Assembly: GCF_000829825.1 (NCBI RefSeq)
Contig: NZ_JXSL01000025.1
Coordinates: 124,001 to 188,000 of the forward strand
Length of the DNA stretch: 64,000 bases
Source: Paramagnetospirillum magnetotacticum MS-1
Lineage (GTDB): Bacteria; Pseudomonadota; Alphaproteobacteria; Rhodospirillales; Magnetospirillaceae
Direction of reading: 5' to 3'
Both the position numbers and the translations under genes were made by a program. The notes beneath the pieces are model-generated. The model did no database searches, was not told where the DNA came from, and saw nothing but the letters and a program-made list of their open reading frames with translations. This document shows, in pieces, positions 10,566-64,000 of the stretch (positions are counted from its first letter, which is position 1; each line of letters opens with the position of its first letter).

Positions 10566-10710
10566 GGAAACCTCCTTGTTGCTCTAGACATGGGAAGAGC
10601 GGACCATGGGTCAAGGACCCCGTGGGGATGGTCTCTCTGGACGGATGTGTCCCAACTCCGCTATCTTTGGGGGAATCTAACCGAAAGGTATGGGGGGGAG
10701 GCACGGCGTA

Positions 10711-12873
10711 ATGCTTCGACTTGACGTCGGCACATTGGGTTTTACCGCCGCCATGACGTCCATGACCTGTGGCATGGTCTATGGTGCCTATGGCATGGCG
10801 CGCCACCATGGCCGCCGCTGGATCGCTTTCGGTCTTTCGGCGCTGTGCTATGGCCTGGGTCTTTCGCTGATCGTCAATCTCGGCAGCTTTCCGCCGCTTT
10901 TCACTGTGGTTGGCGGCAACCTCTTGCTGGCCCTGGCGGCGGTTGCCCTGCATGCCTGCTGTGCCCAACTGTCCGAACGCGCATTGCCGCCGGTCTTCTA
11001 CCTTGCCTATGTCGCCGCCTATTTGGGGGGAGTGAGCTACTTCCTTTATCTGGACGACAGCATCGGCGGCCGCATCGTGTGGGCATCGCTGATCCGGGTT
11101 CCGCTATTCTTGCATGCGGCCCTGATGATCCACCGTCACCGCCAAACGGAGAGGTCTATCGGCCTGGTGGTTCTGGAAACCGTCCTGGTCGGTTGGGCCT
11201 GTCTCCTGGTGGGGCGCCCTCTTGCCGTGTCGGTGGTCTATCCCATCCGGGAGTTCCTCTCCCTGGAGGGCTTTCTGGCGTTCTATTACGTCATGGCGGG
11301 GTCGGCCTATGTGGCCATGCTGATCGCCTTGATGCTGATCGATGTCGATCGCCTTGCCGCTCTGCTGGGCCGCGAGGTGTCGCGTCAGGCCGAGGCCCTG
11401 GAAACCCAGATCTCGCGCCAGACTCAGGCTCAGACCGAGTTGCGGTCCATCCTCGACAACATGCCCGACATATTTTATCGCACGGATGCGCAGGGCCGTT
11501 TGCTGATGTTGTCGCGTTCGGTGGAAAGTCTGCTGGGCTATAAGCCAGAGGAGGTTCTGGGGCAGGATTCTGCCTTCTTCCACGGCTCTGACGACAGCCG
11601 CCCCATGCTGGTCGCGGCCCTGGAGGCGGCGGGCGGCTCAATTCTCGATTATGAGTTGAGGCTAAGGCACAAGGATGGCCACACCTTGTGGGCGTCCACC
11701 TCGTCACGCTTTTACTACGACGCCGAAGGCAACCGGGCGGGGACCGAAGGGGTCGTCCGGCTGATCGAGGAGCGCAAGCAGGCGGAATTCCATATCCGTG
11801 AGAATCAGGCCCTGATCCAGGCCATGCTGGACGCCTCCTCCGATGCCATCATGCTGTTCCGGCCCGATGGGACCTTGCTGGCGGTCAATGGGGTGATGGC
11901 CGCCCGCTTCGGCCGCAAGGCATCGGAACTGACCGGTTCGTGCTTATGGGACATGTTCCCGCCTAGCGTGGCCAAGGCCCGCGAGGTCGCGGTGACCCGC
12001 GTGGTGGAAACCGGCGAGGCCATCCATTACCTGGACCGGCGGGGTGAGCTTTATCTGGACAATTCCATCTATCCCGTTCCCGGCGTGGATGGGGTTCCCG
12101 ACAAGGTGGCCGTCTATTCCCGCGACATCACCGCCCAGACCCTGGCCGAACAGCGGCTGGCTATTCAGATGACCGAACTGGAACGCTCCAATGCCGAACT
12201 GGAGCAATTCGCCTATGTGGCCAGCCATGACCTGCGCGAGCCGCTGCGCATGATTTCCAGCTATCTCAGCCTGCTGGAGCGGCGTTACGGACCGAAGCTG
12301 GAAGGCGATGGCCTGGAATTCCTGGCCTTCGCCCGTGACGGTGCCAAGCGCATGGACCGGCTGGTGCTGGACCTGCTGGACTTCTCGCGCATCGAACGCA
12401 AGGGCTCGCCCATCATTGCCATGGAGGCCGAACCCGTGTTGCGCCAGGCGCTGCGCCATCTGGCCCCAAGCATGGATGAATGCGGTGCCCAGGTCGAAAT
12501 GGCCGAGGACGGGGGTGCCGTCCGGGTGATGGGCGATCCCGAACAGGTCATCAGGCTGTTCCAGAACCTGGTCGGCAACGCCGTCAAGTACCGGGCCCCC
12601 GGCCGCGTGCCCCGTGTCTCGGTGTCGTGGCGCCGTGACGGCGGCGAATGGGAGTGCACCATCGCCGATAACGGTATCGGCATCGACCCGCAGTATTTCG
12701 AGCGGATCTTTGGAATCTTCCAGCGGCTGCACACGCCCGACCGGTATACCGGCACCGGCATCGGTCTGGCCATCTGCAAGAAGATCGTCGAGCGCCATTC
12801 GGGGCGCATCTGGGTGGATTCAACACCCGGCCAAGGCACGGCCTTCCACTTCACCCTGCCCGCGGCGGACTGA
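10711..12873 (+). CDS. Membrane PAS sensor histidine kinase
   Basis: A 720-residue kinase. Residues about 1-215 hold six or seven hydrophobic helices resembling a 7TM-type sensor. Two PAS domains follow, about 245-360 (DNMPDIFYRTDAQGRLLMLS) and about 370-480 (DASSDAIMLFRPDGTLLAVN). The dimerisation domain has phospho-His in YVASHDLREPLRM, and the ATPase domain has NLVGNAVKY, DNGIGIDP and GTGIGLAICKK. The His-box is the type found in phytochrome-like kinases. ATG 10711 was chosen for GGGAGG 9 bases upstream; ATG 10690 lacks spacing. No response regulator is adjacent. It ends two bases from the convergent HD-GYP gene. Confidence 0.9.
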   Translation: MLRLDVGTLGFTAAMTSMTCGMVYGAYGMARHHGRRWIAFGLSALCYGLGLSLIVNLGSFPPLFTVVGGNLLLALAAVALHACCAQLSERALPPVFYLAYVAAYLGGVSYFLYLDDSIGGRIVWASLIRVPLFLHAALMIHRHRQTERSIGLVVLETVLVGWACLLVGRPLAVSVVYPIREFLSLEGFLAFYYVMAGSAYVAMLIALMLIDVDRLAALLGREVSRQAEALETQISRQTQAQTELRSILDNMPDIFYRTDAQGRLLMLSRSVESLLGYKPEEVLGQDSAFFHGSDDSRPMLVAALEAAGGSILDYELRLRHKDGHTLWASTSSRFYYDAEGNRAGTEGVVRLIEERKQAEFHIRENQALIQAMLDASSDAIMLFRPDGTLLAVNGVMAARFGRKASELTGSCLWDMFPPSVAKAREVAVTRVVETGEAIHYLDRRGELYLDNSIYPVPGVDGVPDKVAVYSRDITAQTLAEQRLAIQMTELERSNAELEQFAYVASHDLREPLRMISSYLSLLERRYGPKLEGDGLEFLAFARDGAKRMDRLVLDLLDFSRIERKGSPIIAMEAEPVLRQALRHLAPSMDECGAQVEMAEDGGAVRVMGDPEQVIRLFQNLVGNAVKYRAPGRVPRVSVSWRRDGGEWECTIADNGIGIDPQYFERIFGIFQRLHTPDRYTGTGIGLAICKKIVERHSGRIWVDSTPGQGTAFHFTLPAAD

Positions 12874-17805: not shown

Positions 17806-19278
17806 TCAATGCTGCCCCGCTTTGACCCCGCGCACGAACGACACGAAGCGTGGCGCCCAAGGATTGGCGCCGACCGATCGCATATGAGCATAGGTGGCGA
17901 GCGTGTTGGCGATTATCAACCCGTCGTGTTTTTCGGCGATGCCGGTGCCCCGGATGACCTGATAGGCGAAACGGGGCGTGCCTTCCATATTCTCCAGCCG
18001 CGAATGGTGGAATTCATGGGCGGGCAGAACGCCGGGGCCATCTTCCAGACGGGGCCAGGGGAAGTGTTCCGTTTCGCGAAGACGCACATAGCCCCGTCCC
18101 TGGGGCGCCTTGTGCATCACCGCATCGGCGGGGATCAGCCCGACCATCTCGCGCCTTTGCCCTTTCCAAATGATGGAGCGCGACAGAAACATCAGCCCGC
18201 CGCATTCGGCATAGATGGGCAGCCCGGCCAGCCCTTTTTCCTGGATTTCGGCGCGCAAGCTGGTGTTGGCTTCCAGCGCCCCGGCTTGGGTCTCGGGAAA
18301 TCCGCCGCCGATGAACAATCCGTCCAGATTTGGGGGCAGATGGGGATCGCGAGTGGCGTCGAAGAACACCAGTTCGGCGCCCGCCGCCTCCAAGGACTCC
18401 ATATCATCGCGGTAATAAAAGCCGAAGGCGGCGTCCCTGGCGATGCCGATGCGGACCTTTCCCACATCCGTCATCCCGGCCCCGAGCCGGGATCCAGGAG
18501 TCGCTAAGACAGCCATCGTGTTGCCCCTGGGCCCCGGATCGGCGCTTCGCTTGTCCGGGGTGACGACGCTTTCAATGGGCGATGCCGCCTGGGCCAGGGC
18601 GATCAGGGCGTCCAGATCCACCTGGGCCGAGACCGCGCCCGCCAGCCGCGATATGGCCGCCGCCGCCGCCTCGGCCTCGTTGGCGGGGACCAGTCCCAGA
18701 TGTCGCTCCATGATCTCCATGTCGGGGCCGCGATGGACGGCGCCGAGGATGGGAATGCGGGTGTAGTGGGCGACCACGTCGCGCAGTTTCTTTTCGTGGC
18801 GGGGACCGCTGACCTTGTTGAGGATGACGCCTGCGATCTTCAGCGTCGGGTCGAAGGCCTGATAGCCGATCAGCAGGGGGGCGATGCCCCGTGTCATGCC
18901 CTGGCAATCCACCACCAGGACCACGGGGGCGTCCAGCCACTGGGCTAGCATGGCCGAGGAATTGGCGCCTTCCAGATCGACGCCGTCATAAAGCCCCTTA
19001 TTGCCCTCGATCAGACTGATATCCGCGCCTTTGGAATCCTGCTCGAAGGTCTGGCGGATCAGGCCGGGCGGCTGGGTGTGGAAGTCCAGGTTGCGGCACG
19101 CCCGCCCGGTGGCGGCGCCCAACCACAGGGGATCGATATAGTCCGGCCCCTTCTTGAAGGTCTGCACCGCCAGCCCGCGTGCGGTCAGGGCGGCGGCCAG
19201 ACCCACCGTCACCGTGGTTTTCCCCGAGGATTTGTGGGCCGCCGAGATCAGCAGCCGGGGGGCGGGACGGGTGGTCAC
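17806..19278 (-). CDS. cobB: Cobyrinate a,c-diamide synthase
   Basis: A 490-residue enzyme of cobalamin synthesis that amidates two carboxylates of cobyrinate using glutamine and ATP. The N-terminal ATPase domain has LLISAAHKSSGKTTVTVG and the C-terminal glutaminase domain has the nucleophile Cys in IYAECGGLMFLS. The GTG start overlaps the upstream stop codon (GTGA). Residues about 238-270, in the linker between the two domains, are encoded by a 97-base palindromic element (18469-18565) that keeps the frame open. No cobalamin riboswitch or other cob gene was seen in the window. Confidence 0.93.
   Translation of the reverse strand: MTTRPAPRLLISAAHKSSGKTTVTVGLAAALTARGLAVQTFKKGPDYIDPLWLGAATGRACRNLDFHTQPPGLIRQTFEQDSKGADISLIEGNKGLYDGVDLEGANSSAMLAQWLDAPVVLVVDCQGMTRGIAPLLIGYQAFDPTLKIAGVILNKVSGPRHEKKLRDVVAHYTRIPILGAVHRGPDMEIMERHLGLVPANEAEAAAAAISRLAGAVSAQVDLDALIALAQAASPIESVVTPDKRSADPGPRGNTMAVLATPGSRLGAGMTDVGKVRIGIARDAAFGFYYRDDMESLEAAGAELVFFDATRDPHLPPNLDGLFIGGGFPETQAGALEANTSLRAEIQEKGLAGLPIYAECGGLMFLSRSIIWKGQRREMVGLIPADAVMHKAPQGRGYVRLRETEHFPWPRLEDGPGVLPAHEFHHSRLENMEGTPRFAYQVIRGTGIAEKHDGLIIANTLATYAHMRSVGANPWAPRFVSFVRGVKAGQH
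18469..18565. repeat. Palindromic repeat element inside cobB
   Basis: The ends CGTCATCCCGG and CCGGGGTGACG are inverted copies with one mismatch. The inner part has further GC-rich inverted segments (CCCCGAGCCGGGATCCAGG and CCTGGGCCCCGGATC). This layout is typical of small intergenic palindromes in alphaproteobacteria, yet it lies within the cobB coding frame and adds about 32 residues rich in Gly, Pro and Arg. Related elements lie at 30172-30278 and 63025-63102. Confidence 0.8.
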
Positions 19279-20300
19279 GCCGCCCCCGGAACCTTGGCTC
19301 TGTTGCGTTCGCGCCACAGAACCTGGGCCATGCCCTCGGCCTCGTCCACGCTGGCGGCCTGGCCCATGGCGCGAAGCGCGATGGCCATGGTGCCGGTGAT
19401 GGCGGCGGCTGCCGTCTCGTCGGTCTCGGCCCCGGTCCACAGCGCCTTCAGGCGAGACAGGTTCAGATGCTCTTCATGGGGACGTGCTCCGTCCACCAGG
19501 GCGGGCCAGTTTTCCGACAAGGGCTGGCCGCCCACCAGGGATAGCACTTCGCACTCCTTTTCCGGGCGGCGTTCGGCCTCGCCGCCTTCGCCCTTGAACA
19601 CCGCCATGCGCTGGTCGCCCAGCAGGCGCAGCGCCTCCTGATGAACCGGGGCATAGGGCGGGTGCGAGACGCTGGACAGGGAACAGGCCGCGCCAAAAGG
19701 ATTGGCCAGCCGCGCCACGGTATGGACGGGCGAGCGCAGGCCCAGCTTGTGGCGCAGTTCCATGATGGCGTGCAGCGGTGGCGACAGATGTTCCAGGGTC
19801 ATATAGGCGAAATTGCCGCGCTCCAGCCGGGCGCAGGCCTCGGCCATGGAGGTGCTTTGCGCCAGTCCCAGGGCGCTCAAAGCCTCGGACGTCCAGACCC
19901 GCCCGGCGGTGTGGCCTTCCGAGCCGTGCATGAACACCCGGATGCCGTGACCGGCCAGGGTGAGGGCGGCCAGCAGGTAAAGGGGAAGCTGGCGGGTCTT
20001 GCCCGCATAGCTGGACCAGTCCAGATCGACCTTCGGCGCGTTTGCGGGCGGCGTGATGGTGGCGCGGATGGCGGCGGCCAGTCCGGCGGCCTCCTCCGGC
20101 GTTTCGGTCTTGACCCGCAGCAGACAGAGGAAGGCGCCCAGTTGCACCGGCTCCACCTCGCCCTTCAGCACCATGGCGAAGGCGTCGCGCGCCTCCTCGA
20201 AGGTGAGCGGGCGCGACAGGCGCGGCCCCTTGCCGAGAATGCGGACATATTGGGCGAAGGGATGTTCTTGGGCCACGGGCGATCCTTTCTCGGCTGACAT
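19275..20300 (-). CDS. TrpD2-like glycosyltransferase family 3 protein
   Basis: A 341-residue protein related to anthranilate phosphoribosyltransferase. The N-terminal helical domain has RPLTFEEARDAFAMVLKGEV, and the core has GIRVFMHGSEGHTAGR in place of the usual TrpD glycine-rich motifs. This points to the TrpD2/YbiB group, which binds nucleic acid and has no proven transferase activity. The gene overlaps cobB by four bases and shares its operon. ATG 20300 was chosen; a TTG at 20321 is possible and no ribosome site is clear for either. Confidence 0.75.
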   Translation of the reverse strand: MSAEKGSPVAQEHPFAQYVRILGKGPRLSRPLTFEEARDAFAMVLKGEVEPVQLGAFLCLLRVKTETPEEAAGLAAAIRATITPPANAPKVDLDWSSYAGKTRQLPLYLLAALTLAGHGIRVFMHGSEGHTAGRVWTSEALSALGLAQSTSMAEACARLERGNFAYMTLEHLSPPLHAIMELRHKLGLRSPVHTVARLANPFGAACSLSSVSHPPYAPVHQEALRLLGDQRMAVFKGEGGEAERRPEKECEVLSLVGGQPLSENWPALVDGARPHEEHLNLSRLKALWTGAETDETAAAAITGTMAIALRAMGQAASVDEAEGMAQVLWRERNRAKVPGAA

Positions 20301-22051: not shown

Positions 22052-24280
22052 CTATTTCGTCTTCATCTCGTAGACGCCGCTCCAATCGGGTGACGGCGGG
22101 TCGGCCAGAAAGTGGCGGCTGCGTTCTATGAAGATGGACGGAACCTTGTCGGCGGGGGCCAGGGCGGCGAGGTTTTCGTAGGCGGCGATGGCATCGGTCC
22201 AGCGCCGCTCCTGATAGGCGCTGAAGCCTTCCTCGGTCAGTCGGCACATTTCCAATTCCGCCGCTGTGGGGGCCAGGTCGGGATTGCCGCCGCGCAGCGC
22301 CATCAACTCGTAGACCATGGCACCGGCCTTGCGCCCCTTGACGGCGACCAGATCCAGAGGGCGGACCACCAGCGACGGACCGGCGGCATCGACCACCGCC
22401 TGGCTGATACAGATCTGGGTGCCGTAGACCTTGTTGACCCCTTCCAGGCGCGAGGCGACGTTGACGCCGTCGCCCATGGCCGTATAGCTCATGCGCCAAG
22501 CCGAGCCGATATTGCCGACAATGACCGGCGCCGTGTGCAGACCGATGCGCACGAACATGGTGGGGAGCCCCTGCGCGGTCCAGTCGGCATTCATCAGGGC
22601 CTGGACCCGCCTGGCTTTCAGTGCGGAGATGCAGCCGCGCAACGCATGGTCGTCACGCCAGACGGGGGCGCCCCAGAAGGCCATCACCGCGTCGCCTACA
22701 TATTTGTCGACGGTCCCGTCCTCTTCCGCCACGCATTCCGAGATGGCGGCCAGATGGCGCGAGATATGGACCAGCAGGTCGCCCGCCGTCATGCGCTCGG
22801 ACAGGCCGGTGAAGTCGGCCACATCGGTAAACATCACGGTCAAAGTCCGGTTCTGGCCGCCCAGTTCGATGGCCTTGCCGCTTGCGACGAGTTCGCGGAC
22901 CAGATCGCGGGGCACGAACATGCCGAAGGTGCGCAGCGCCCGTTTCATCATGTTCATCGAATGGATCAGTTCATTGACCTCGGCGACGATGGCGTGAAGC
23001 GCGATGGGGCCGTTCAGGTCGAATCTCTGGATCTTCTGGATCTCACGGGTCAGCAGGGTGAGCGGCCGGGTAATCCAGCTCGACAGCAGCGCCACCAGCA
23101 AAAGCCCGAAAACCATGACCACAAAACCGGTGGCCACCAGTTCCCGGCTGTTTTCCCGCAGCGTTCCGACGAAATCGTCCTCCAGGACGATGATCACCAT
23201 CAGCCAGTTCTTGCCCAATTGGGCCGGGAAGGGGTTGAACGAGCCCAGATGGCGGTGTCCACCCGATTCGAAACTGATGGTGGGCGTTTTAGCGGCACGG
23301 TAGGCGGCAAAGGCGTCGGTGATGACGCTTTCGCCCAGTTGGTCGGCCTTGACCAGGGAATATTTCAGCCCGTCCTGGCGCACCGTGCGCGCGGCGTCGG
23401 GATGGGCGATCAACTGTTCCTTTTCATCGACGATGAAGGCGATGCCCGATTGCCCCAAATCCAGCTTGGCAAGGAAAGCCGACATCTGGTTGGTGGCCAC
23501 ATTGGCGGCGGCGGCGCCGATCGCCCGGCCATCGGCGGCGATAATGGGATAGGCGGCGGTGATGCCGGGCTGGCGGTTGCTGGTATAGACCAGCAGGTCG
23601 CTCCAGATCAGCCGTTTGGTCGCGATGGCGTCCTTGTACCAGGGGCGGGGGCGGGGGTCGTAGTTCAACTGGTTGGAGGTCTCGGACCCCAGGACCTGTC
23701 CCGTCGCCGTCACATAGGTCCAGACATCGGAATAGACCCCGCCCTTGCGGTCGATGACGCGAAGCGCGAATTTTGCGCCTTCGGGCGGCTTCGAATCGTT
23801 GGCGCCGAATTTCTCCGTGCCGGGCGGGATGGGAAAGGCCTGAAGAAAACGCCCATCGGCATCGAAGGCCAGATAGATACTCTGCAACTGCTCCTGGGTT
23901 TCCAGAATGCTCATCAGATAGGGGAACAAGCTGCCGTCGCGGGCCCTGCCTTCATCGATGGCGGCCAGCCGGGCGGTGGCCTGGACGCTGGTCTCGACGG
24001 GATCGAGCAGGGCCATGCTGCTGGCGATGCCCGAGCTTGACACCCGTTCGACGAAACGCCCCATCAGTTCCAGGACCGACGCGGAGTTCCGTACATAGGC
24101 GAAGGTGACCAAGGTGACGACGGTGATGCTCAGCAGGGCGACGAAGGTGCCCATGATATTGATTCGAAGCGACAGTCCGTTGCCGCGTTTCTTGCGCCGC
24201 CGCTCCGGAAAAAGCCGTTCCGGCGCATCGCCGGACGGCGTGCTGCTCGGGGGCTCGGGCGCGGTGGGCATCGTGTTCAT
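22052..24280 (-). CDS. Cache-HAMP class III adenylate/guanylate cyclase
   Basis: A 742-residue membrane protein. A charged cytoplasmic N-terminus is followed by a helix (FVALLSITVVTLVTFAYV), a periplasmic double-Cache domain with NYDPRPRPWYKDAI, a second helix (about 385-410), HAMP and a class III cyclase domain (about 485-650). The cyclase has both metal Asp residues (MFTDVADFT and KYVGDAVMAFWGAP), and YTAMGDGVNVASRLEG near its end. A helical C-terminal tail of about 80 residues may be TPR-like. It probably makes cyclic AMP in response to an external ligand. The start is the first ATG, and the ribosome site is weak. Confidence 0.9.
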   Translation of the reverse strand: MNTMPTAPEPPSSTPSGDAPERLFPERRRKKRGNGLSLRINIMGTFVALLSITVVTLVTFAYVRNSASVLELMGRFVERVSSSGIASSMALLDPVETSVQATARLAAIDEGRARDGSLFPYLMSILETQEQLQSIYLAFDADGRFLQAFPIPPGTEKFGANDSKPPEGAKFALRVIDRKGGVYSDVWTYVTATGQVLGSETSNQLNYDPRPRPWYKDAIATKRLIWSDLLVYTSNRQPGITAAYPIIAADGRAIGAAAANVATNQMSAFLAKLDLGQSGIAFIVDEKEQLIAHPDAARTVRQDGLKYSLVKADQLGESVITDAFAAYRAAKTPTISFESGGHRHLGSFNPFPAQLGKNWLMVIIVLEDDFVGTLRENSRELVATGFVVMVFGLLLVALLSSWITRPLTLLTREIQKIQRFDLNGPIALHAIVAEVNELIHSMNMMKRALRTFGMFVPRDLVRELVASGKAIELGGQNRTLTVMFTDVADFTGLSERMTAGDLLVHISRHLAAISECVAEEDGTVDKYVGDAVMAFWGAPVWRDDHALRGCISALKARRVQALMNADWTAQGLPTMFVRIGLHTAPVIVGNIGSAWRMSYTAMGDGVNVASRLEGVNKVYGTQICISQAVVDAAGPSLVVRPLDLVAVKGRKAGAMVYELMALRGGNPDLAPTAAELEMCRLTEEGFSAYQERRWTDAIAAYENLAALAPADKVPSIFIERSRHFLADPPSPDWSGVYEMKTK

Positions 24281-24376: not shown

Positions 24377-26779
24377 TCACATAGTCTCGCGCTGCATCCA
24401 GGTGGCCAATTGCTCGGCTGGCATGGGCTTGGCGTAGCGGAAGCCCTGAACCTTGATGCATCCGGCCTCCTTGAGGTGGATTTCCTCGCCTTCGGTCTCC
24501 ACGCCTTCGGCGACGATGGACATGTCGAGAGCATCAGCCAGGCCGAGGATGGCCGAGACGATGGCGGCGTTATCACTCTGGTTGTTGACGTCGCGCACGA
24601 AGGAGCGGTCGACCTTGATGGTGTTGAGCGGAAGTTTCTTCAGGTAGGAAAGGCTGGAGTAGCCGGTGCCGAAATCATCCACCGAGACCTGGATGCCGAT
24701 CTCGCGCAGCCGGGTGAGCTGTTCGATGGCGCGGTCGGGTTCCGCCATGACGGTGCTTTCGGTCAACTCGATTTCCAACTGGGACGGCAGGACGCCGTAT
24801 TGGGTCATCAGGTCCGAAATACACTCCACCAGGGCATGGTTGAGGAACTGGCGCCCCGAGACGTTGACCGCCACCTTGATGCCGGTCAATCCGGCCTCGC
24901 GCCAGACGGCCAACTGGCGGCAGGATTCTTCCAGCACCCACCAGCCGATCATGGAAATCAGATTGCTTTCCTCGGCGATGGGGATGAAGAGCGCGGGCGA
25001 AACCTGGCCGCGCTCGGGGCTGTTCCAGCGGATCAGCGCCTCGACGCTGGAGGTCACGCCGGTCTGCAGATCCACCTGGGGCTGGTAGAACAACTGGAAC
25101 TCGCCACGCACCAGGGCGTGGCGCAGCGCCTCCTCCAGCTTGAGGCGGTCCAGGGCTTCGTCGTTCATGTTGGAATCATAGAAGCAGAAGGTGTTACGGC
25201 CCTTCTGCTTGGCCCGGTACATGGCGGTGTCGGCGTCCTTCATCAAGGAATTGAAATCGTCGCCGTCCTCGGGGAAGAGCGCGATGCCGATACTGGCGCC
25301 CACATGGACCTTGTGGCCCGACAATTCCACCGGCTCGTCCAGTGCGGTGGAGATCTTTTCCGCCACTTCGGCCAGTTCGCTGCTGCTTTGGAAGTGGGTC
25401 AGGACCACGACGAATTCGTCGCCCCCTAAGCGCGCCACCGTGTCCGAGCGGCGCAAAGTGTGGCGCAGCCGGTCGGCGACCACCTTCAGCAGCTGGTCGC
25501 CCGCCACATGGCCCAGGCTGTCATTGACGATCTTGAAGCGGTCGAGATCGAGGAACATCAGGCCGATGCGCCGCCCTTCGCGCTTGGCCACCTCGATGGC
25601 GTGGTGGACGCGGTCTTCCAGCAGCAGGCGGTTGGGCAGGCCGGTCAGGGTGTCGTGGGTGGCCTGATGGACCAGTTGCTGCTCGGTCTCCTTGCGCTGG
25701 GTGATGTTTTCCTTGACCGCCATGTAATGGGTGGTCACGCCGTCATCGTCGCGGATGGGCGAGATGGTGGCGTATTCCCAAAACAGGCTTCCGTCCTTGG
25801 CGCGGTTGCACAATTCGCCCTGCCAGGTGGCGCCGCCCGAGAGGCACTGCCACATGTCGCGGAAGACCGAGGCCACGGTCTCGCCGGATTTCAAAAGCCG
25901 GGGATTGCGGCCCAGAACTTCGTCCTCGGAATAGCCCGAGACCAGAACGAAGGCCCGGTTGACATATTCGATGGCGCCTTGGGCATCGGTGATCATCACC
26001 GCGACCGGAGCCTGTTCCAGGGCGGTTTCCAGCTTGCGCAACTGCAGGCGGCGCTGGTGAATCTGGGTCACGTCGCGCGAGAACACCGCCACTCTGTCGT
26101 GGTTGCCCGAGGCGTTGTCCACCAGATGCATATGAATGTCGAACAGCCTGGCGCCGATGGCGTAATGGCCCTCCACCGTTTCGCCGCGGGCCAGGACGCG
26201 TTCCACGCCTCTGCGCATGGACGAGGTCACGGCCTCGGGGAGATGGTCCCAGATGGATTTGCCGGGCAGGTCGTCGCTCTTCTTTTCGAAAAAGGAGGAG
26301 GCGGCCGCATTGAGTGCCAGGATGGTGCCGGCGGCATTGACCAGCACGATGCCGTCGGTGGAGGAATCCAGCATGGCGCGGATCAGCGCCTTGCCGTCCA
26401 GGATGGTCTGTTCCGCCTGCTTGCGCTTGCTGACGTCGTAGATCCAGGCCAGATTCACCGCCTCGCCGTTCAAGCTGGCCGAGCGGATGGTCAGAACCGA
26501 CCAGAAGGATGTGCCGTCGACACGGAAGAACTTCACGTCGGCATCGGCGATCTCGCCTGCTTCCTTCAACTGCCGCACCACTTCCCGGCGCTGGTCGTCA
26601 TCGGCGAAAAGGCGCCGGGCCGGATGGCCGATACACTGGTCCGGCGTCATGCCGGTCACCTGACAGAATCTGCGGTTGACGAAGACAACCTGGCCGTCGC
26701 GGCGGCGCGACACGGAAACTCCGATCGGGCTTTCATCCAATATGCCCAGAAAATCGGTAATTTCGGCGGGAAGAGACAT
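24377..26779 (-). CDS. PAS-GGDEF-EAL dual cyclic-di-GMP protein
   Basis: An 800-residue soluble protein. Three PAS domains (about 10-120, 130-240, 245-365) precede a GGDEF domain with LGGDEFVVVL and an upstream RxxD inhibitory site (RRSD), then an EAL domain with VEALIRW, ELTESTV, DDFGTGYSSL, KVDRSFV and AEGVET. All catalytic motifs of both domains look intact, so it could both make and break cyclic-di-GMP depending on PAS signals. It is divergent from pyrB across 170 bases. No transmembrane segment was seen. Confidence 0.93.
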   Translation of the reverse strand: MSLPAEITDFLGILDESPIGVSVSRRRDGQVVFVNRRFCQVTGMTPDQCIGHPARRLFADDDQRREVVRQLKEAGEIADADVKFFRVDGTSFWSVLTIRSASLNGEAVNLAWIYDVSKRKQAEQTILDGKALIRAMLDSSTDGIVLVNAAGTILALNAAASSFFEKKSDDLPGKSIWDHLPEAVTSSMRRGVERVLARGETVEGHYAIGARLFDIHMHLVDNASGNHDRVAVFSRDVTQIHQRRLQLRKLETALEQAPVAVMITDAQGAIEYVNRAFVLVSGYSEDEVLGRNPRLLKSGETVASVFRDMWQCLSGGATWQGELCNRAKDGSLFWEYATISPIRDDDGVTTHYMAVKENITQRKETEQQLVHQATHDTLTGLPNRLLLEDRVHHAIEVAKREGRRIGLMFLDLDRFKIVNDSLGHVAGDQLLKVVADRLRHTLRRSDTVARLGGDEFVVVLTHFQSSSELAEVAEKISTALDEPVELSGHKVHVGASIGIALFPEDGDDFNSLMKDADTAMYRAKQKGRNTFCFYDSNMNDEALDRLKLEEALRHALVRGEFQLFYQPQVDLQTGVTSSVEALIRWNSPERGQVSPALFIPIAEESNLISMIGWWVLEESCRQLAVWREAGLTGIKVAVNVSGRQFLNHALVECISDLMTQYGVLPSQLEIELTESTVMAEPDRAIEQLTRLREIGIQVSVDDFGTGYSSLSYLKKLPLNTIKVDRSFVRDVNNQSDNAAIVSAILGLADALDMSIVAEGVETEGEEIHLKEAGCIKVQGFRYAKPMPAEQLATWMQRETM

Positions 26780-38955: not shown

Positions 38956-40740
38956 TCAGGGGGCTGGCTGGGCGGAGACGCAATTGCGCCCACTGGTCTT
39001 GGCCCGGTAAAGAGCGGTGTCGGCCTCGGCGATCAGGCTTTGCGTATCGAGGCTGTCGCCCTGGGTGGCGACCAGATTGAGGCAGGACACGCCGATGGAG
39101 ATAGTGACCTCCCCCGAGGTTTGCGATGCCAGATGCGGAAGATGAAGCTCGGCCACCGCCAGACGCATCTTTTCGGCCAGGGTTTGGGCGTCGGTCAGGG
39201 TGCAGCCCGGCAGGATGACGCCGAACTCCTCGCCACCATAGCGGGCGACCAGATCGGCTGGACGCTTGGCTGTCGCCGCCAGGGTCGCCGCGACGGTCTT
39301 GAGGCATTCGTCACCGGCCTGATGGCCGTAATGATCGTTATAGGCCTTGAAGTGATCCACATCGATCATCAGCAGGGCCAGCGGGGTCCCCGCCCGGCTG
39401 GCGCGGCGCCATTCCTGGCCCAGGGTCTCGTCGAAGGTGCGCCGGTTGGCGATGCCGGTCAGGCCGTCGATCATGGCCAGATGGCGCAGGCGGATTTCCG
39501 CCTCCTTGCGCTTGGAGATGTTCTGATGGGCGATCACCACTCGAAGGCCGCTTGCCGATTGGGCTTTGAGGACGCTCATCAGGAACCACCGGGCCTCGCC
39601 AGGGGCATCGCAGCTATATTCCATGGAAAAGCCGTCGCTGGTGCCCTGGAGGACCGCCCGGATGGCCGCGGCGGCGGTCTCTGCGCCGTCGCTGCGAGGG
39701 CCATCGGCCCGTTCGCAGGCATGGAGATAGTTGGACCCGACGCCACCGCTTCCGAGATCGCCGTGATTGGCCTCGAGGAAGTCACGCCAGCTTTCGTTAA
39801 CGGCCAGGATGGTGCCGGTCTCGTCGATGACGCAGACATGGTCGGGCAGGGCGTCCAGGGTGGTGCGGGCCAATTGCCGTTCGGCCCACAATTCCCGGTT
39901 AAGGGCGTCGAGCAGTTCCTTTTCCTGTTCCAGGGCGCGCATCAGCTGTTCCTGGCTGAAGGCCGAGGCGAAGGATTTGGTGGTGAGCAGGGCGCTGACC
40001 ACGCCCCAGCCGATCACCGAGAAGCCGACGGCGAAGATGGCATGGGCCAGCCACCACATATGATCCCAGGGCTTGGCCAGAATGAATGCCATGGCGGCCT
40101 GGGCGAAGAGCAGCAACGCCACCCCGTAATACTTCATCAGGGGCGAGGTGATCCGCCGCAGCACCATCACCGTCACGCCCCCCAGGCAAAGCAGGGCGGC
40201 CGCCGATTCCATGGGCAGGCGAACCCAGGGGCTGGACGCCAAGGACGAGTTGGCAAGCACGACAACGCCCGCCACGGCCACGGCGCTGGCGCCGAAGACA
40301 TAACGCCAGAAACCACGGGTCAGCACCTCTCCCACGTTTTCCGCTGGCTTTCCGTACTGGGCCAGGCCATAGGCCATGCAGCCCAGCATCACCAGGCGCG
40401 AGACCGGCCCGAACAGCAGGAACAGCCAGATATTGTGATGGGCGGTGCGGGTCAGGAAGCCGTGTGGCGCATAGATCAGGGTGAAGGCCAGGAAACCCAC
40501 GGTCAGCCAGCGCAGGAAGATTTCGCCCGAATCCTTGTAGCTTCGCCAGGACACATAGGACACGAAGCCGCCGATCAGCGTGGCGATGGTGATGGCGAAT
40601 TCGTGGAAGGGGTGGTTTTCAAAGACCGGCGGCGGGACGGGGGAAAAGGTCGCCAAATACCAGATGGCAAAGCTTGGGCTTAGCGCGATCGCCAGAAGCT
40701 GCAGCGCCTGGAATACTCGCGCGATCCGTTCCAGTCCCAT
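38956..40740 (-). CDS. Membrane PAS-GGDEF diguanylate cyclase
   Basis: A 594-residue protein. Residues about 1-255 contain roughly eight hydrophobic helices forming a membrane sensor. A PAS domain (about 290-410, DALPDHVCVIDETGTILAVN) is followed by a GGDEF domain with RYGGEEFGVILPG. An RxxD inhibitory site (RPAD) stands five residues before GGEEF, so product feedback is expected. It should make cyclic-di-GMP from two GTP. No EAL domain is present. Confidence 0.92.
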   Translation of the reverse strand: MGLERIARVFQALQLLAIALSPSFAIWYLATFSPVPPPVFENHPFHEFAITIATLIGGFVSYVSWRSYKDSGEIFLRWLTVGFLAFTLIYAPHGFLTRTAHHNIWLFLLFGPVSRLVMLGCMAYGLAQYGKPAENVGEVLTRGFWRYVFGASAVAVAGVVVLANSSLASSPWVRLPMESAAALLCLGGVTVMVLRRITSPLMKYYGVALLLFAQAAMAFILAKPWDHMWWLAHAIFAVGFSVIGWGVVSALLTTKSFASAFSQEQLMRALEQEKELLDALNRELWAERQLARTTLDALPDHVCVIDETGTILAVNESWRDFLEANHGDLGSGGVGSNYLHACERADGPRSDGAETAAAAIRAVLQGTSDGFSMEYSCDAPGEARWFLMSVLKAQSASGLRVVIAHQNISKRKEAEIRLRHLAMIDGLTGIANRRTFDETLGQEWRRASRAGTPLALLMIDVDHFKAYNDHYGHQAGDECLKTVAATLAATAKRPADLVARYGGEEFGVILPGCTLTDAQTLAEKMRLAVAELHLPHLASQTSGEVTISIGVSCLNLVATQGDSLDTQSLIAEADTALYRAKTSGRNCVSAQPAP

Positions 40741-59991: not shown

Positions 59992-60023
59992 CTGGGGAGG
60001 GGGCCTTGGATGGGAGTTCGACA

Positions 60024-60785
60024 ATGAACGTCAACGGATTGGCCGCCATCGTCACCGGCGCAGGCTCGGGTCTTGGACAAGCCACGGCGCGCGCCTTGGC
60101 CAAGGCTGGCGCCAAGGTCGCGGTGTTCGACATCAACGCCGCCAATGCCGAGGCCACGGCCAGGGAAATCGGCGGTGTCTTTGCCGCCTGCGATGTGACC
60201 GACGAGGCCTCCACCCTGGCGGCCATGGCCCATGCGCGGGCCGCCCACGGCCCGGCCCGCATCGCGGTGAGCTGCGCCGGAGTGGTGACGCCGGGCAAGG
60301 TGGTGGGGCGCAAGGGCCCCATGCCGCTGGAAACCTATGCCCGCGTCATTCAGGTCAACCTGATCGGCACCTTCAACGTCATGCGTCTTGCCGCCGCCGA
60401 TATGGCCGGGCTGGAGCCGCTGGAGGGAGGCGAGCGCGGGGTGATCGTCAACACCGCCTCCATCGCCGCCTGGGACGGGCAGGTGGGACAGTGCGCCTAT
60501 GCCTCGTCCAAGGGGGGCGTCGCCGCTCTGTCGCTGCCCGCCGCCCGCGAATTCGCACCCTTGGGCATCCGGGTCATGGCGGTGGCGCCCGGCTATATGG
60601 AGACTCCCATGCTGGCGGGCATGCCCGAGGAGGTCATGACCAATCTGGTGGCCTCGACCTTGTTTCCCCATCGCCTGGGGCGGCCCGAGGAATTTGCGCG
60701 TATGGTGTTGGCCATCTGCGACAATCCCATGCTCAACGGCAGCGCCATCCGTCTCGATGGCGCGGTCAGGATGCCGCCGCAATAG
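60024..60785 (+). CDS. Short-chain dehydrogenase, HSD10-type 3-hydroxyacyl-CoA dehydrogenase
   Basis: A 253-residue SDR. The cofactor motif is [19 protein letters not shown]-type motif SCAGVV, catalytic Ser in [13 protein letters not shown], and YASSKGG with catalytic Tyr and Lys. The TPxMxGMP-type segment [10 protein letters not shown] matches type II 3-hydroxyacyl-CoA dehydrogenase, which acts in isoleucine and fatty acid breakdown. GGGAG precedes ATG 60024. It probably belongs with the valine genes. Confidence 0.9.
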
Positions 60786-60791
60786 GGAAAC

Positions 60792-61634
60792 TTACCCTTC
60801 GGCGGGAAGCACGACACTGACCGTGGTGCCCTCGCCCTGGGCCGAGGCCACATGGATGGAGCCGCCATGGGCCTCGATCACCCTGGCGCAAATGTAAAGC
60901 CCGAGCCCGATGGAGCTTTCGCCCGCGGTTCCCTGGCTTCCCTCGGCAAAGGGATGGAACAGGGATTCCAGCTTTTGGGGCGCGATACCGATGCCGGTAT
61001 CCGTGACCTCCATGCGGGCCCAGGGCTGGCCCTCCTCGTCCTGTTCCGCGGAGAGGGCGATGGTGATGGTCGATCCGGGATGGGAAAACTTGATGGCATT
61101 GCCGATCAGATTGGTCAGAACCTGCTCGATCTTGACGCGGTCCATCAACACCCATAGCGGCCGGGATGACGTCGCCGACAGGGTAATGGATTTCTGATCA
61201 GCCAGGATCGAGGCCATGGACACGATCCGCTGCGCCAGCAACGTCATGTCGGCGGGCTGGCGATTGATGGTGAGGTGCCCGGTTTCGATGGCCGACAGCG
61301 ACAGAATGTCCTCGATCAGCGCCAGCATGTAGCCAACGGATTGCTGAATCCGTCCCACGAACTCCATCTCCTGGCCGGTGGTGGCGGTGGGCAAGAGCAG
61401 TTCGAGAATCTGGGAATAGCCGGAAATTACCGACAGCGGCGTGCGCAGATCATGGGCCAGGACGCCGAACAGTTTGTTCTTCAAGTCGTTGGCGGCGGTC
61501 AGTCTGGCATTGGCCTTGGCCAATTGGCGCTGGGTATTGACCAGTTCGCTGTTGAGGGCGCCGATGGACTCGTACATGTCGTCATCGGATTCTGGCTGAA
61601 GATGTTGACCGGAACCCTTTGTGTTCAAGGACAT
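60792..61634 (-). CDS. Soluble histidine kinase paired with the B12-binding protein
   Basis: A 280-residue kinase with no membrane segment. A coiled coil (about 20-55) leads to HisKA with His61 in LAHDLRTPLSVIS, and the ATPase domain has NLIGNAIKFS, DTGIGIAP and GLGLYICARVIEAHGG. The gene starts inside the end of the B12-binding gene (10-base overlap). GGAGG abuts ATG 61634, so a TTG at 61628 with better spacing may be the true start. With no sensor domain of its own, it likely takes its input from the B12 protein. No response regulator is adjacent. Confidence 0.88.
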   Translation of the reverse strand: MSLNTKGSGQHLQPESDDDMYESIGALNSELVNTQRQLAKANARLTAANDLKNKLFGVLAHDLRTPLSVISGYSQILELLLPTATTGQEMEFVGRIQQSVGYMLALIEDILSLSAIETGHLTINRQPADMTLLAQRIVSMASILADQKSITLSATSSRPLWVLMDRVKIEQVLTNLIGNAIKFSHPGSTITIALSAEQDEEGQPWARMEVTDTGIGIAPQKLESLFHPFAEGSQGTAGESSIGLGLYICARVIEAHGGSIHVASAQGEGTTVSVVLPAEG

Positions 61635-62338
61635 CCTCCGCGCTCGGCGATCATGACGGCCTCGGCGGCATTTTGGGCGGAGCCGTCGGCTCCCAGCTTT
61701 CGCCACAGATCCTGGTCGATGTTGAAGGGATAGCCGCCCACCAGGATGGTCGTCTTGCTCCCAAACTGTTTGCGGGCCTTGGTGACCAGGTCTTCGACCA
61801 GTCCCAGATGGGTGGTGAGGGTGGCGGAAATGGCGATCACCTCGGCCTCGGCCGAAAGGGCCATGTCCACCACGTCCGATGCCGGGATATTGGCCCCCAG
61901 ATAGTGGCTGTCCCAGCCGCTCATCTCGAAGCAATCGGCGACCATGCGGGCGCCGACCTCGTGCAGTTCCCCGCTGACGCAACAGGCCACCATGGTGCGG
62001 CGGTGACCGTCGCCCCGGAAGATGCGGGGATAGAGCTGGGACATGATCGCCTGGGTGACGGCGGTGATGTAATGTTCCTGGGCGATGGTGAGGCGGTCTA
62101 TCTGCCAAAGGCGACCCACTTCCCACAACGCAGGCTGGAAAACGTCGAGATAGATATTCTCGATGGACATGCCGCCGTCCACGGCTTCCATGATCATGGC
62201 CGTCGCCTCGTGGCGGCGGCGTGCGATCAAGGTGTTGAGATAGCGCTGAGCCATGGGGGACAACCCCCCCGTTCCGTCCAGATGGACGGGCTGAGGGGCG
62301 CCTATCGCCCCTTCACCGTTCCAGAATGCCGAAGCCAT
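61625..62338 (-). CDS. Stand-alone cobalamin-binding (B12 photoreceptor-like) protein
   Basis: A 237-residue protein. Residues about 30-105 form a four-helix B12-binding-2 cap and 113-235 a Rossmann B12-binding domain. The lower-ligand motif is ELHEVG (Glu124, His126, Gly129). The cap has Trp78, then nine residues, then Glu88-His89: the Wx9EH pattern known from adenosylcobalamin light sensors of the CarH/LitR group. The His that follows the Trp in CarH is Gln79 here. There is no MerR DNA-binding domain. ATG 62338 was preferred over GTGs at 62347 and 62344. It overlaps the kinase gene. Confidence 0.88.
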   Translation of the reverse strand: MASAFWNGEGAIGAPQPVHLDGTGGLSPMAQRYLNTLIARRRHEATAMIMEAVDGGMSIENIYLDVFQPALWEVGRLWQIDRLTIAQEHYITAVTQAIMSQLYPRIFRGDGHRRTMVACCVSGELHEVGARMVADCFEMSGWDSHYLGANIPASDVVDMALSAEAEVIAISATLTTHLGLVEDLVTKARKQFGSKTTILVGGYPFNIDQDLWRKLGADGSAQNAAEAVMIAERGGCP

Positions 62339-62534
62339 ACTCACCACGCTTGCAGTCTTACGGCATATTACGTATAGGCCTTAGTGATTACAAGCGAGGG
62401 GCGGCAATGGACGCAAAATTGCCTCAATCGCCAGCACAATAGCGACGGTTCCCGCCGTCACGGAACCTTCGCTTGTCCGCGTAGGGATGTGGCGATAGGA
62501 ATGCCGCGCCTCATTATTGGATGACCGGACCATC

Positions 62535-62750
62535 ATGGCCCCGACTTTGGAAGAATACTGCCACTGCCCCCACTGCAACCGCCGCACCCGCCATTCCGTG
62601 GCGCGTGAAAGGGTTCTTGCCCCGGTTCTTTGGTGCCTCTCCTGTTTCCGCATGCGGGTGGAAACGGTCAAGCCCAAGGCCAAGGCAAAGGCTGCCAGCC
62701 GTCACGCCCCGCCAACGGGGGCAGGCCAGACCTACCGTCTCGCCGGTTGA
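62535..62750 (+). CDS. Small zinc-ribbon-like protein
   Basis: A 71-residue basic protein with two CxxC pairs: YCHCPHCNRRT and LWCLSCFRMR, spaced as in small zinc ribbons. The C-terminus is rich in Lys and Ala (KPKAKAKAASR). I do not recognise a family. The ATG at 62535 has only a weak GGA upstream; a TTG at 62517 is possible. It is divergent from the B12-binding gene over 196 bases that contain nothing else I can identify. Confidence 0.55.
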   Translation: MAPTLEEYCHCPHCNRRTRHSVARERVLAPVLWCLSCFRMRVETVKPKAKAKAASRHAPPTGAGQTYRLAG

Positions 62751-62819
62751 TGGGCGGGTGGGGCAAGGCTACACTCCACCTTGCCGCCACGCATCTTTAA
62801 AGACCGGAGTTCCCCCCTC

Positions 62820-63017
62820 ATGAGCGATGTCGACGCCCTCAAGGCCGAGGTCAAGAAGCTGAACGCGCAGGCGACCCAGGCCAAGATGGACCTGCACGAC
62901 CTGTCCGAGGAACTGCCCATCGGCTGGGAGAAGATCCCCGACGTGGCGGCCCATTGCCACGACCTTTATGCCCGTTTGACCAAGGCCCGCGCCGCGCTGA
63001 AGGCGGCGGGCGGCTGA
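62820..63017 (+). CDS. CCE_0567 family (DUF683, Rop-like) small metalloprotein
   Basis: A 65-residue helical-hairpin protein. The run ALKAEVKKLNAQATQAKMDL followed by HDLSEELPIGWEKIPDVA matches, from memory, the CCE_0567 family, best known from nitrogen fixation gene clusters and reported to bind metal through His residues. Here there are His in DLHDL and AAHCHDL. GGAG lies 11 bases before the ATG. No nif gene is in the window, so its context is unusual. Confidence 0.82.
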   Translation: MSDVDALKAEVKKLNAQATQAKMDLHDLSEELPIGWEKIPDVAAHCHDLYARLTKARAALKAAGG

Positions 63018-63024
63018 AGATTCC

Positions 63025-63102
63025 TGTCATCCTGAACGGAGTGAAGGATCTTTCAACCGGTAACGGTGCCTGAAGGGCCCTTCGCTTGCGCTCAGGGTGA
63101 CA
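63025..63102. repeat. Palindromic repeat element before murI
   Basis: The ends TGTCATCCTGA and TCAGGGTGACA are inverted with one mismatch, and inside are GGAGTGAAGGATCTTTC and GGGCCCTTCGCTTGCGC. It fills most of the gap between the CCE_0567-type gene and the end of murI. It starts like the elements at 30172 and 18469. Confidence 0.7.
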
Positions 63103-63107
63103 GAGGT

Positions 63108-63929
63108 CTAGCCCAGATCGATGGTCTCGACCTCGGATTCCGGAATTGTCCAGGGCACGAAAACCTTCGAGACGCGGGCAAAGCGCTCGGGCGCGTCGGT
63201 GGCGAGGTAGCGCACGCGGGACGGGCCGCCTTCATTGCAGAGCCTGCGCAGGCTCAGCAGATCCTCCAGCACCATGGCGGTGGTCGAGGCCGAATCCACC
63301 ACGGCCACGTCCCGGCCCAGCAGGCGGCGGAACAGCGGCGCCAGGGCGGGGAAGTGGGTGCAGCCCAGCAGCAGGCAATCGGCGGCTTCGGGGCCGGTGA
63401 ACAACGGCCCCAGATAATGCCGGGCGATCTGTTCGGCGATGGGGCCGTCCACCAGGCCTTCCTCGACCATGGGCACGAAGAGCGGGCAGGGAAGCTGGGT
63501 CACCAGGGCATTGGGCCGCGAATGCAGAATAGCGCGCGGATAGGACCCCGCCTGCACGGCGCTTTCGGTGGCGATGACCACGATGCGGCCTCGGGCCGAG
63601 GCGGTGGCCGCGGCCGCCGCGCCCGGCTCGACCACGCCGATCACCGGCAGGCCGGGAAAGGCGGCGCGCACGGCTTCCAGGGCGTGGGCCGAGGAGGTGT
63701 TGTCGGCGACCAAAAGCGCCTTGATGCCGTAGGCTACCAGGGCGCGGGTGGCTTCCAGGGCATAGGCCGCCACGGTCTGGGCGCTTTTGGTGCCATAGGG
63801 CAGGCGGGCGGTGTCTCCCAGATAGATCAGCGATTCGTCCGGCAGCCTCTCGCGCACCGCCTTTAGAACGGTCAGACCGCCGACGCCGGAATCGAAAATG
63901 CCGATGGGAAGGTTGGGATTGCCGCTCAT
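63108..63929 (-). CDS. murI: Glutamate racemase-like protein with altered active site
   Basis: A 273-residue protein of the glutamate racemase family, which supplies D-glutamate for peptidoglycan. IGIFDSGVGGLTVLKA, YLGDTARLPYGTKS and LLLGCTHFPALAP (Cys190) match the family. The first catalytic Cys, normally in ACNTxSA, is replaced by Asp76 (VADNTSSAHALE, codon GAC). Racemisation needs both Cys in known enzymes, so activity may be lost or changed. A 71-base tail to the window end is uninformative. Confidence 0.88.
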   Translation of the reverse strand: MSGNPNLPIGIFDSGVGGLTVLKAVRERLPDESLIYLGDTARLPYGTKSAQTVAAYALEATRALVAYGIKALLVADNTSSAHALEAVRAAFPGLPVIGVVEPGAAAAATASARGRIVVIATESAVQAGSYPRAILHSRPNALVTQLPCPLFVPMVEEGLVDGPIAEQIARHYLGPLFTGPEAADCLLLGCTHFPALAPLFRRLLGRDVAVVDSASTTAMVLEDLLSLRRLCNEGGPSRVRYLATDAPERFARVSKVFVPWTIPESEVETIDLG

Positions 63930-64000
63930 GACGTCCAGATGGGAAAATTAGGTCAGATGCATACTTAGACCTCTCCCTCATCTCCGGCAAGGGGAGGTAT

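Follow-up and report, generated by a model that had tools for sequence, protein, structure and literature searches.

Whether a small B12-binding protein and a soluble histidine kinase, encoded by overlapping genes in Paramagnetospirillum magnetotacticum MS-1, act together as a light sensor, and whether the pair as it stands is complete, is the question that this locus raises. (The window, to which positions refer unless a contig is named, is the whole stretch of DNA analysed, 64,000 nucleotides of contig NZ_JXSL01000025.1.) A preliminary description had read the pair as a two-component light or B12 sensor with a CarH-like B12 domain, perhaps closer to AerR in its photochemistry. The coupling of a CarH-type B12 domain to a kinase is upheld by conservation and by a natural gene fusion; the likeness to AerR and the assumed completeness of the pair are not. 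The reading that we favor, with moderate confidence, is that of a reduced photocobilin-type two-component photosensor. In this reading it is a minimal B12-photoreceptor system, and one that would probably respond to green or blue light.

The B12 protein and its parts are located as follows.

61625-62338, minus strand: B12 (adenosylcobalamin) photoreceptor-like protein, 237 residues, ATG start (a GTG start at 62347 is possible).
62033-62251, minus strand: B12-binding_2 domain, the four-helix-bundle cap, residues 30-102 (Pfam PF02607, 1.3e-13).
62072-62107, minus strand: adenosyl-pocket motif W78-Q79-x8-E88-H89 (W78, E88 and H89 in 65/65 aligned proteins, Q79 in 60/65).
61655-61993, minus strand: Rossmann-type B12-binding domain, residues 116-228 (Pfam PF02310, 5.9e-23).
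61952-61972, minus strand: lower axial ligand motif G123-E-L-H126-E-V-G129 (H126 and G129 in 65/65, G123 in 63/65, E124 in 59/65).
61883-61897, minus strand: signature element G148xxxP152 (G148 in 65/65, P152 in 63/65).

The residues from which the preliminary description had assembled an ExHxxG motif (Glu124-His126-Gly129) and a Trp78-x9-Glu88-His89 motif are all verified in the 237-residue protein, as is Gln79. In an alignment of the window protein with 64 of its 80 relatives (65 proteins), G75, W78, E88, H89, H126, G129 and G148 are identical throughout, so that the motif is not a matter of chance. The light-response signature of B12 photoreceptors is given in PMC11796333 as GxxW, EH, GxxH and GxxxP, and the window protein has all four elements (G75/W78, E88/H89, G123/H126 and G148/P152). 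Pfam (E<=0.001) finds the two B12 domains and nothing else, bearing out the absence of a DNA-binding domain, MerR included.

The AlphaFold2 model of the protein has a mean pLDDT of 90.3 (residues 1-12 are low), and its top PDB fold match is the dark-state photocobilin SasPcob (8j2w, TMq 0.80); after it come the other photocobilin and structures of CtMerR, corrinoid proteins, methionine synthase and CarH. Sequence matches in the PDB agree: SasPcob entries are best at 1e-23, CarH entries reach 1.6e-7, and no entry named or titled AerR is among the fold and sequence matches listed. The position of TtCarH His132, held by Gln79 in the window protein, is Gln in SasPcob, Arg in CtMerR and Tyr in AbDPcob (PMC11796333), for all three of which light responses are reported (PMC11796333, PMC10979010). 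Because Gln79 is the norm in this family (60 of 65 aligned proteins) and is present in photoactive SasPcob, it is no pointer to the AerR-type chemistry previously suggested, and photocobilins are the best solved matches. What the replacement of His132 by Gln79 does imply is that a bis-His light state is not to be expected at that position. Upstream of this gene there is an imperfect palindrome, which was set aside as evidence; it is not clearly kept at the syntenic locus of genome G010.

The second gene and its parts are these.

60792-61634, minus strand: soluble histidine kinase, 280 residues, His61, with its start inside the B12 gene.
61476-61577, minus strand: linker before the phosphoacceptor domain, candidate docking site (from column conservation; probably a coiled coil).
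61278-61481, minus strand: HisKA dimerisation and phosphoacceptor domain (Pfam PF00512, 3.2e-15).
60798-61142, minus strand: HATPase_c catalytic domain (Pfam PF02518, 2.1e-28).

The two genes share 10 bp (61625-61634), confirming the overlap noted earlier, and the kinase boxes are intact (His61, NLIGNA at 175, DTGIGI at 212, GLGL at 243). Pfam (E<=0.001) finds no sensor domain in the 280-residue protein; the earlier statement that the kinase lacks one is right for this kinase but does not extend to the kinases of most relatives, which begin with a predicted PAS fold (see below). The best conserved part of the family kinases is a stretch of 40 columns from the linker to the phosphoacceptor His, with a mean column identity of 0.76 as against 0.45 in the PAS part and 0.56 in the remaining kinase. 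Columns of at least 90% identity number 12 of 40 in this stretch, 4 of 106 in the PAS part and 39 of 217 in the rest; nine of these 12 are linker columns, before HisKA. Despite the absence of PAS, the window kinase retains 11 of the 12 overall and 8 of the 9 in the linker.

Relatives were taken as the best 80 of 191 matches in genome contigs. They come from Chloroflexota, Azospirillum, Heliobacteriaceae, Bacteroidota, Paenibacillus, Thermodesulfobacteriota, Acidobacteriota, Verrucomicrobiota, two archaeal MAGs and others. The partner was defined as the next same-strand frame to open at a distance of less than 400 bases from where the B12 frame ends. Of these 80 loci, 72 have a histidine kinase gene behind the B12 gene or a kinase fused to the B12 protein: 64 kinases with the N-terminal domain of the family, four in which it was not detected, two loci with a fused kinase, a PAS-kinase behind a separate globin-like ORF (L092) and a HisKA_3 kinase (L100). 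(Three of the proteins, those of L075 and L095 and the first of L029, have HATPase_c without HisKA by Pfam.) The other eight loci comprise three with GGDEF partners (L054, L076, L097), one with SpoIIE and then a PAS-kinase (L051), three at contig ends (L047, L058, L072) and one at which no partner was found (L104). At L051, in a SAR324 MAG, the SpoIIE phosphatase that immediately follows the B12 gene carries PAS, and so does the kinase of the next gene.

Joint action of the two window genes has its strongest evidence in natural fusions. In a Verrucomicrobiales MAG (L081), a single chain consists of B12-binding_2, B12-binding, HisKA and HATPase_c, without a profile match to globin or PAS, and it aligns with both window proteins end to end (519 columns, 38.7% identity, E 2.65e-125); the same MAG also encodes, at L029, a globin-B12-PAS-HATPase protein and a globin-B12-PAS-HK-receiver-Hpt protein. 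The survey of relatives that the preliminary description proposed as a check thus finds both the Wx9EH motif and the kinase linkage conserved, and adds a natural fusion. On this comparative evidence, pairing of the B12 protein with a kinase is no accident. It is not universal, as same-order homologues and plasmid relatives show. The former, eight in number and more distant (L120-L127, 32-42% identity), have neither a kinase nor a PAS domain within 0.6-1.5 kb downstream; among three annotated plasmid records viewed of 11 matched, the downstream gene encodes a sensor histidine kinase in Azospirillum thermophilum and a GGDEF protein in Ilyobacter, and no signalling gene adjoins the B12 gene in Skermanella rosea.

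Outputs vary within the module. In two same-family genomes (L013, L014) the partner is a short protein with a PAS-type domain instead of a kinase, which is an output swap within the same module; in L013 this protein has a LuxR-type HTH by Pfam and is followed by a NarL-like response regulator. L110 and L111 likewise have a PAS-type domain without a kinase. At 26 of the 80 loci a receiver-domain ORF opens on the same strand 0.9-1.8 kb past the B12 frame's end, immediately after the usual kinase; the partner ORF itself has a receiver domain at seven, and at nine (eight Azospirillum, one labelled Roseomonas) a receiver ORF closely precedes the B12 gene and stops 1.2-1.4 kb short of the point where the B12 frame ends. 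Near the window pair, three receiver-domain queries found no response regulator among window ORFs of at least 80 residues, as had been claimed; their sole match in the window is a REC-SpoIIE protein at 5279-7135. About 8.3 kb past the pair, outside the window, lies a DivK-like single-domain regulator, and a similar gene occupies the matching place in the sister genome. It was rejected as the cognate regulator, being merely syntenic and presumably of the general cell-cycle type.

The comparison with relatives also shows what the window pair lacks, at two sites.

62258-62338, minus strand: approximate site of the missing N-terminal photoglobin (from nucleotide alignment with syntenic G010).
61577-61607, minus strand: approximate site of the missing N-terminal PAS-fold domain of the kinase (from protein alignment and from nucleotide alignment with G010).

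The pair had been treated as complete; it appears instead to be the reduced form of a module made of a photoglobin-B12 protein and a PAS-kinase. Relatives' B12 proteins have about 105-120 extra N-terminal residues, and in 75 of 80 a start codon is available 110 residues or more ahead of the B12 core. The Phycobilisome model PF00502 matches this extra segment in 42 of 58 members scanned (of the 75) at E<=0.01 (best 9.4e-10), and a profile of the segment matches the SasPcob globin at 6e-8, plus many allophycocyanins; it is, by these matches, a photoglobin of the bilin type. The photoglobin is matched at E<0.01 in 77 of 80 loci, as a separate ORF off the B12 frame in L051 (3e-4, on the other strand) and L092 (5e-6, between the B12 gene and the kinase); the match in L050 is borderline at 0.01. 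A search of 317 genomes from the order matched 20 places at E<=1e-35, and of these the window protein alone has an open frame of less than 348 codons (251). (L127 has a long open frame, yet no match to the photoglobin profile.)

The N-terminal domain of relatives' kinases, about 110 residues, gave no consistent Pfam match in 43 members, and a PDB profile search with the PAS alignment returned designed repeat proteins only, no stretch passing on its own. The model of the domain from L061 has a pLDDT of 92.9; Foldseek gives 53 matches to it at E<=0.001, and nearly all among the matches listed are PAS proteins, with PpsR at rank 4. From this model the domain can be assigned with confidence to the PAS fold. 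A match to this PAS-type domain is found at 70 of 80 loci. In the alignment of kinase N-domains, a nearly invariant Cys occupies position 11 of the L061 segment.

Searches of the window for these domains were negative: tblastn with the G010 photoglobin domain reached at best E 1.7 in 60001-64000, the photoglobin profile matched no window ORF of at least 40 residues, tblastn with the G010 kinase PAS domain reached at best E 0.093, outside the pair, and the PAS-domain profile of the family kinases had no match in the window. The G010 locus is syntenic with the window, with murI on one side and acyl-CoA genes on the other; its pair retains photoglobin and PAS, and the two proteins exceed those of the window by a net length of about 105 and 115 residues. 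A nucleotide alignment of the two loci differs at the N-terminal parts of both genes and aligns at the flanks, and no remnant of photoglobin or PAS was recognised in it. In a tree whose bootstrap had not settled, the window and G010 proteins are sisters (100/96) inside a mainly proteobacterial set. Given this sister grouping and the retention of both domains in G010, their loss on the window branch is the simplest history, and we infer that domain loss, rather than another history, explains both absences. That globin and PAS were lost together is suggestive only, because four loci break the rule. Globin is present while the second PAS profile comes up empty on the partner in L093, L106 and L097 (the first PAS profile gives weak matches there, 0.009 to 1e-5, for which the linker may be responsible); L090 combines a PAS-kinase with no globin within 786 bases upstream. 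A strict co-dependence of globin and PAS is weakened by these exceptions.

Rates of change set the pair somewhat apart from its neighbors. Pairwise dN/dS between the window and G010 is 0.39 and 0.38 for the B12 and kinase genes, as against 0.17 for murI and 0.13 for fadD, while dS is 0.69 and 0.65 for the pair and about 0.40 for murI and fadD. The window branch is three times as long as its sister's (0.42 vs 0.14); none of six relative-rate tests reached 3.84. Raised dN/dS, raised dS and a long branch make changed or relaxed constraint possible, and the history of the locus may be more complex than simple descent. The distribution of the B12 protein is patchy: it occurs in 9 of 55 genomes of the family (E<=1e-25) and in 19 of 317 of the order (E<=1e-35). 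Some relatives fall in Heliobacterium, a phototrophic genus.

The organism's own genome holds a second pair (C9:89913-90485, 40% identity), equipped with globin and PAS; a heme-oxygenase-family gene is about 7 kb away, and a MerR-B12 regulator and an EAL protein are nearby. The region (L023, C9:79001-99000) has the look of a light-sensing neighborhood, containing the heme-oxygenase-family gene, the MerR-type B12 regulator, an EAL/GGDEF protein and the second pair. A PF00502 search of the genome returned nothing at E<=1, and the second pair's globin matches the family photoglobin profile at 2e-21; the Pfam model is thus insensitive here. The genome also has a cobalamin adenosyltransferase match (PF01923, 2.3e-62), three PHY-domain matches and two heme-oxygenase matches. 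A PHY and a heme-oxygenase match share one 966-codon frame and one strand, 0.7 kb separating them (C22:3146-4999; L115, L128); the frame may encode a phytochrome that carries a domain for making its chromophore. In the window, a CobB/CobQ-type amidotransferase gene (GATase_3 and CbiA; 17809-19440, minus strand) is consistent with B12 synthesis by the organism. Other signalling genes of the window encode REC-SpoIIE (plus strand, coordinates above), a PAS histidine kinase (10690-12870, plus strand), a Cache protein with adenylate/guanylate cyclase (22055-24280, minus strand), a PAS-GGDEF-EAL protein (24380-26779, minus strand) and a GGDEF protein (38959-40740, minus strand).

The same fold could serve to sense B12 level or redox rather than light, and the kinase might accordingly report the amount of adenosylcobalamin or the form of cobalamin, with light irrelevant in the cell. 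The genome's adenosylcobalamin-making genes fit such a B12-status sensor, as does the lack of any known photobiology for the pair. It is nevertheless unlikely in our estimation: the light-response signature is kept (with W78, E88, H89 and H126 in 65/65), the bilin-type photoglobin of most relatives fits light, some of those relatives are in Heliobacterium, and phytochrome-type PHY domains are present in the organism. That the pair, deprived of globin and PAS, is a decaying or rewired remnant, light-blind, short-lived or constitutive, would agree with the two missing domains, the raised dN/dS and long window branch, and the lack of a linked response regulator. We consider it quite unlikely, in that both frames are open, the signature residues, the phosphoacceptor His and the ATP-site motifs are retained along with the gene overlap, dN/dS stays below 0.4, relative-rate tests reached the threshold in 0 of 6 cases, and elsewhere the L081 fusion has the same reduced architecture.

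Two further explanations would demote the kinase to a mere neighbor. AerR is a stand-alone B12 protein with a four-helix cap and a Rossmann fold (PMC9144470), and the window protein might be an AerR/PpaA-type antirepressor that targets a transcription factor; linkage or fusion to a kinase in 72/80 loci (best 80 of 191), together with photocobilins as the best fold matches and no AerR title among the 50 fold matches listed, makes this very unlikely. NCBIfam matches to MtbC (60.8 bits) and pyl_corrinoid (58.1 bits) raise the idea of a corrinoid methyltransferase subunit (MtbC-like) beside an unrelated kinase, which is hardly credible and was rejected: the scores fall far under the family cut-offs (350 and 215.3 bits), the adenosyl-pocket signature is present and the kinase pairing is conserved.

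If the pair is indeed a reduced photocobilin-type photosensor, adenosylcobalamin would be held between the four-helix cap and the Rossmann domain of the small protein, with His126 on the lower face of the cobalt and the adenosyl group surrounded by Trp78, Glu88 and His89. Cleavage of the Co-C bond by green or blue light would free the adenosyl group, and its release would alter the shape or oligomeric state of the B12 protein, a change that would be relayed in trans to the kinase of the overlapping gene. The most likely relay is for the B12 cap to dock on the conserved linker that precedes the phosphoacceptor domain, so that photolysis would shift the docked cap and switch autophosphorylation of the kinase. 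Docking on the linker is proposed by analogy, from the conservation of that segment and from published models of AerR-CrtJ, in which AerR's B12 cap sits on CrtJ's Q-linker helix (PMC9144470). In most relatives, photoglobin and the kinase PAS-fold domain would constitute a second input, and the window lineage, having dropped both, would be left with the core without its bilin arm. B12 binding, photochemistry, the docking site, the direction of kinase control and the output are what we infer for the pair from homology and gene arrangement.

A more general and distinctly tentative proposal is that the window pair represents the reduced core of an as yet uncharacterised class of light-gated two-component systems, in which a B12 photoreceptor on a chain of its own acts in trans on the kinase by way of the kinase linker, and photoglobin/PAS would be a second, dispensable bilin channel. 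Such a class would range over many bacterial phyla and some archaeal MAGs. No experimental description of such a kinase emerged from a literature search, outside of which the photoglobin study of Schneider et al. 2022 lay. If real, a kinase partner conserved in this way would connect B12 light sensing to a phosphorelay, in phototrophic and non-phototrophic organisms alike, and would add a B12 photosensor to Magnetospirillum-type bacteria; nature has provided, in the window locus and the single-chain protein that corresponds to it, minimal constructs for testing which contacts carry the signal. Only a few B12 photoreceptors have a known output, namely CarH-type repressors, AerR with its target CrtJ, and a photocobilin with a diguanylate cyclase (PMC10979010, PMC9144470). 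On a term search, the main text of a survey of light responses in magnetotactic Rhodospirillaceae (PMC6532209) contains neither 'cobalamin' nor 'B12'.

Among known systems, the photocobilins SasPcob and AbDPcob share with the window protein a B12 domain with the full signature, and SasPcob also shares Gln at the position of TtCarH His132 (PMC11796333). The window protein differs in having no photoglobin, a domain that most of its relatives do have, N-terminal in their case and C-terminal in SasPcob (PMC10979010); output in the window pair is by way of a separate histidine kinase, whereas photocobilins have a fused diguanylate cyclase or none. CarH/LitR proteins have in common with it the cap and Rossmann fold, W-x9-EH and the GxxH lower ligand, but the window protein lacks their MerR DNA-binding domain and replaces His132 by Gln79. 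AerR/PpaA with CrtJ/PpsR can be thought of as a comparable arrangement of a stand-alone B12 protein and its partner, and the PAS of PpsR resembles the PAS domain of relatives' kinases; in the window, however, the partner is a kinase and not a repressor, and AerR is absent from the nearest structural matches listed. Light-sensing photoglobin-B12 modules tied to prokaryotic signal transduction were reportedly predicted by Schneider et al. in 2022, and the wider module may already have been noted there; the doubly reduced window pair and its single-chain counterpart differ from those photoglobin-B12 proteins.
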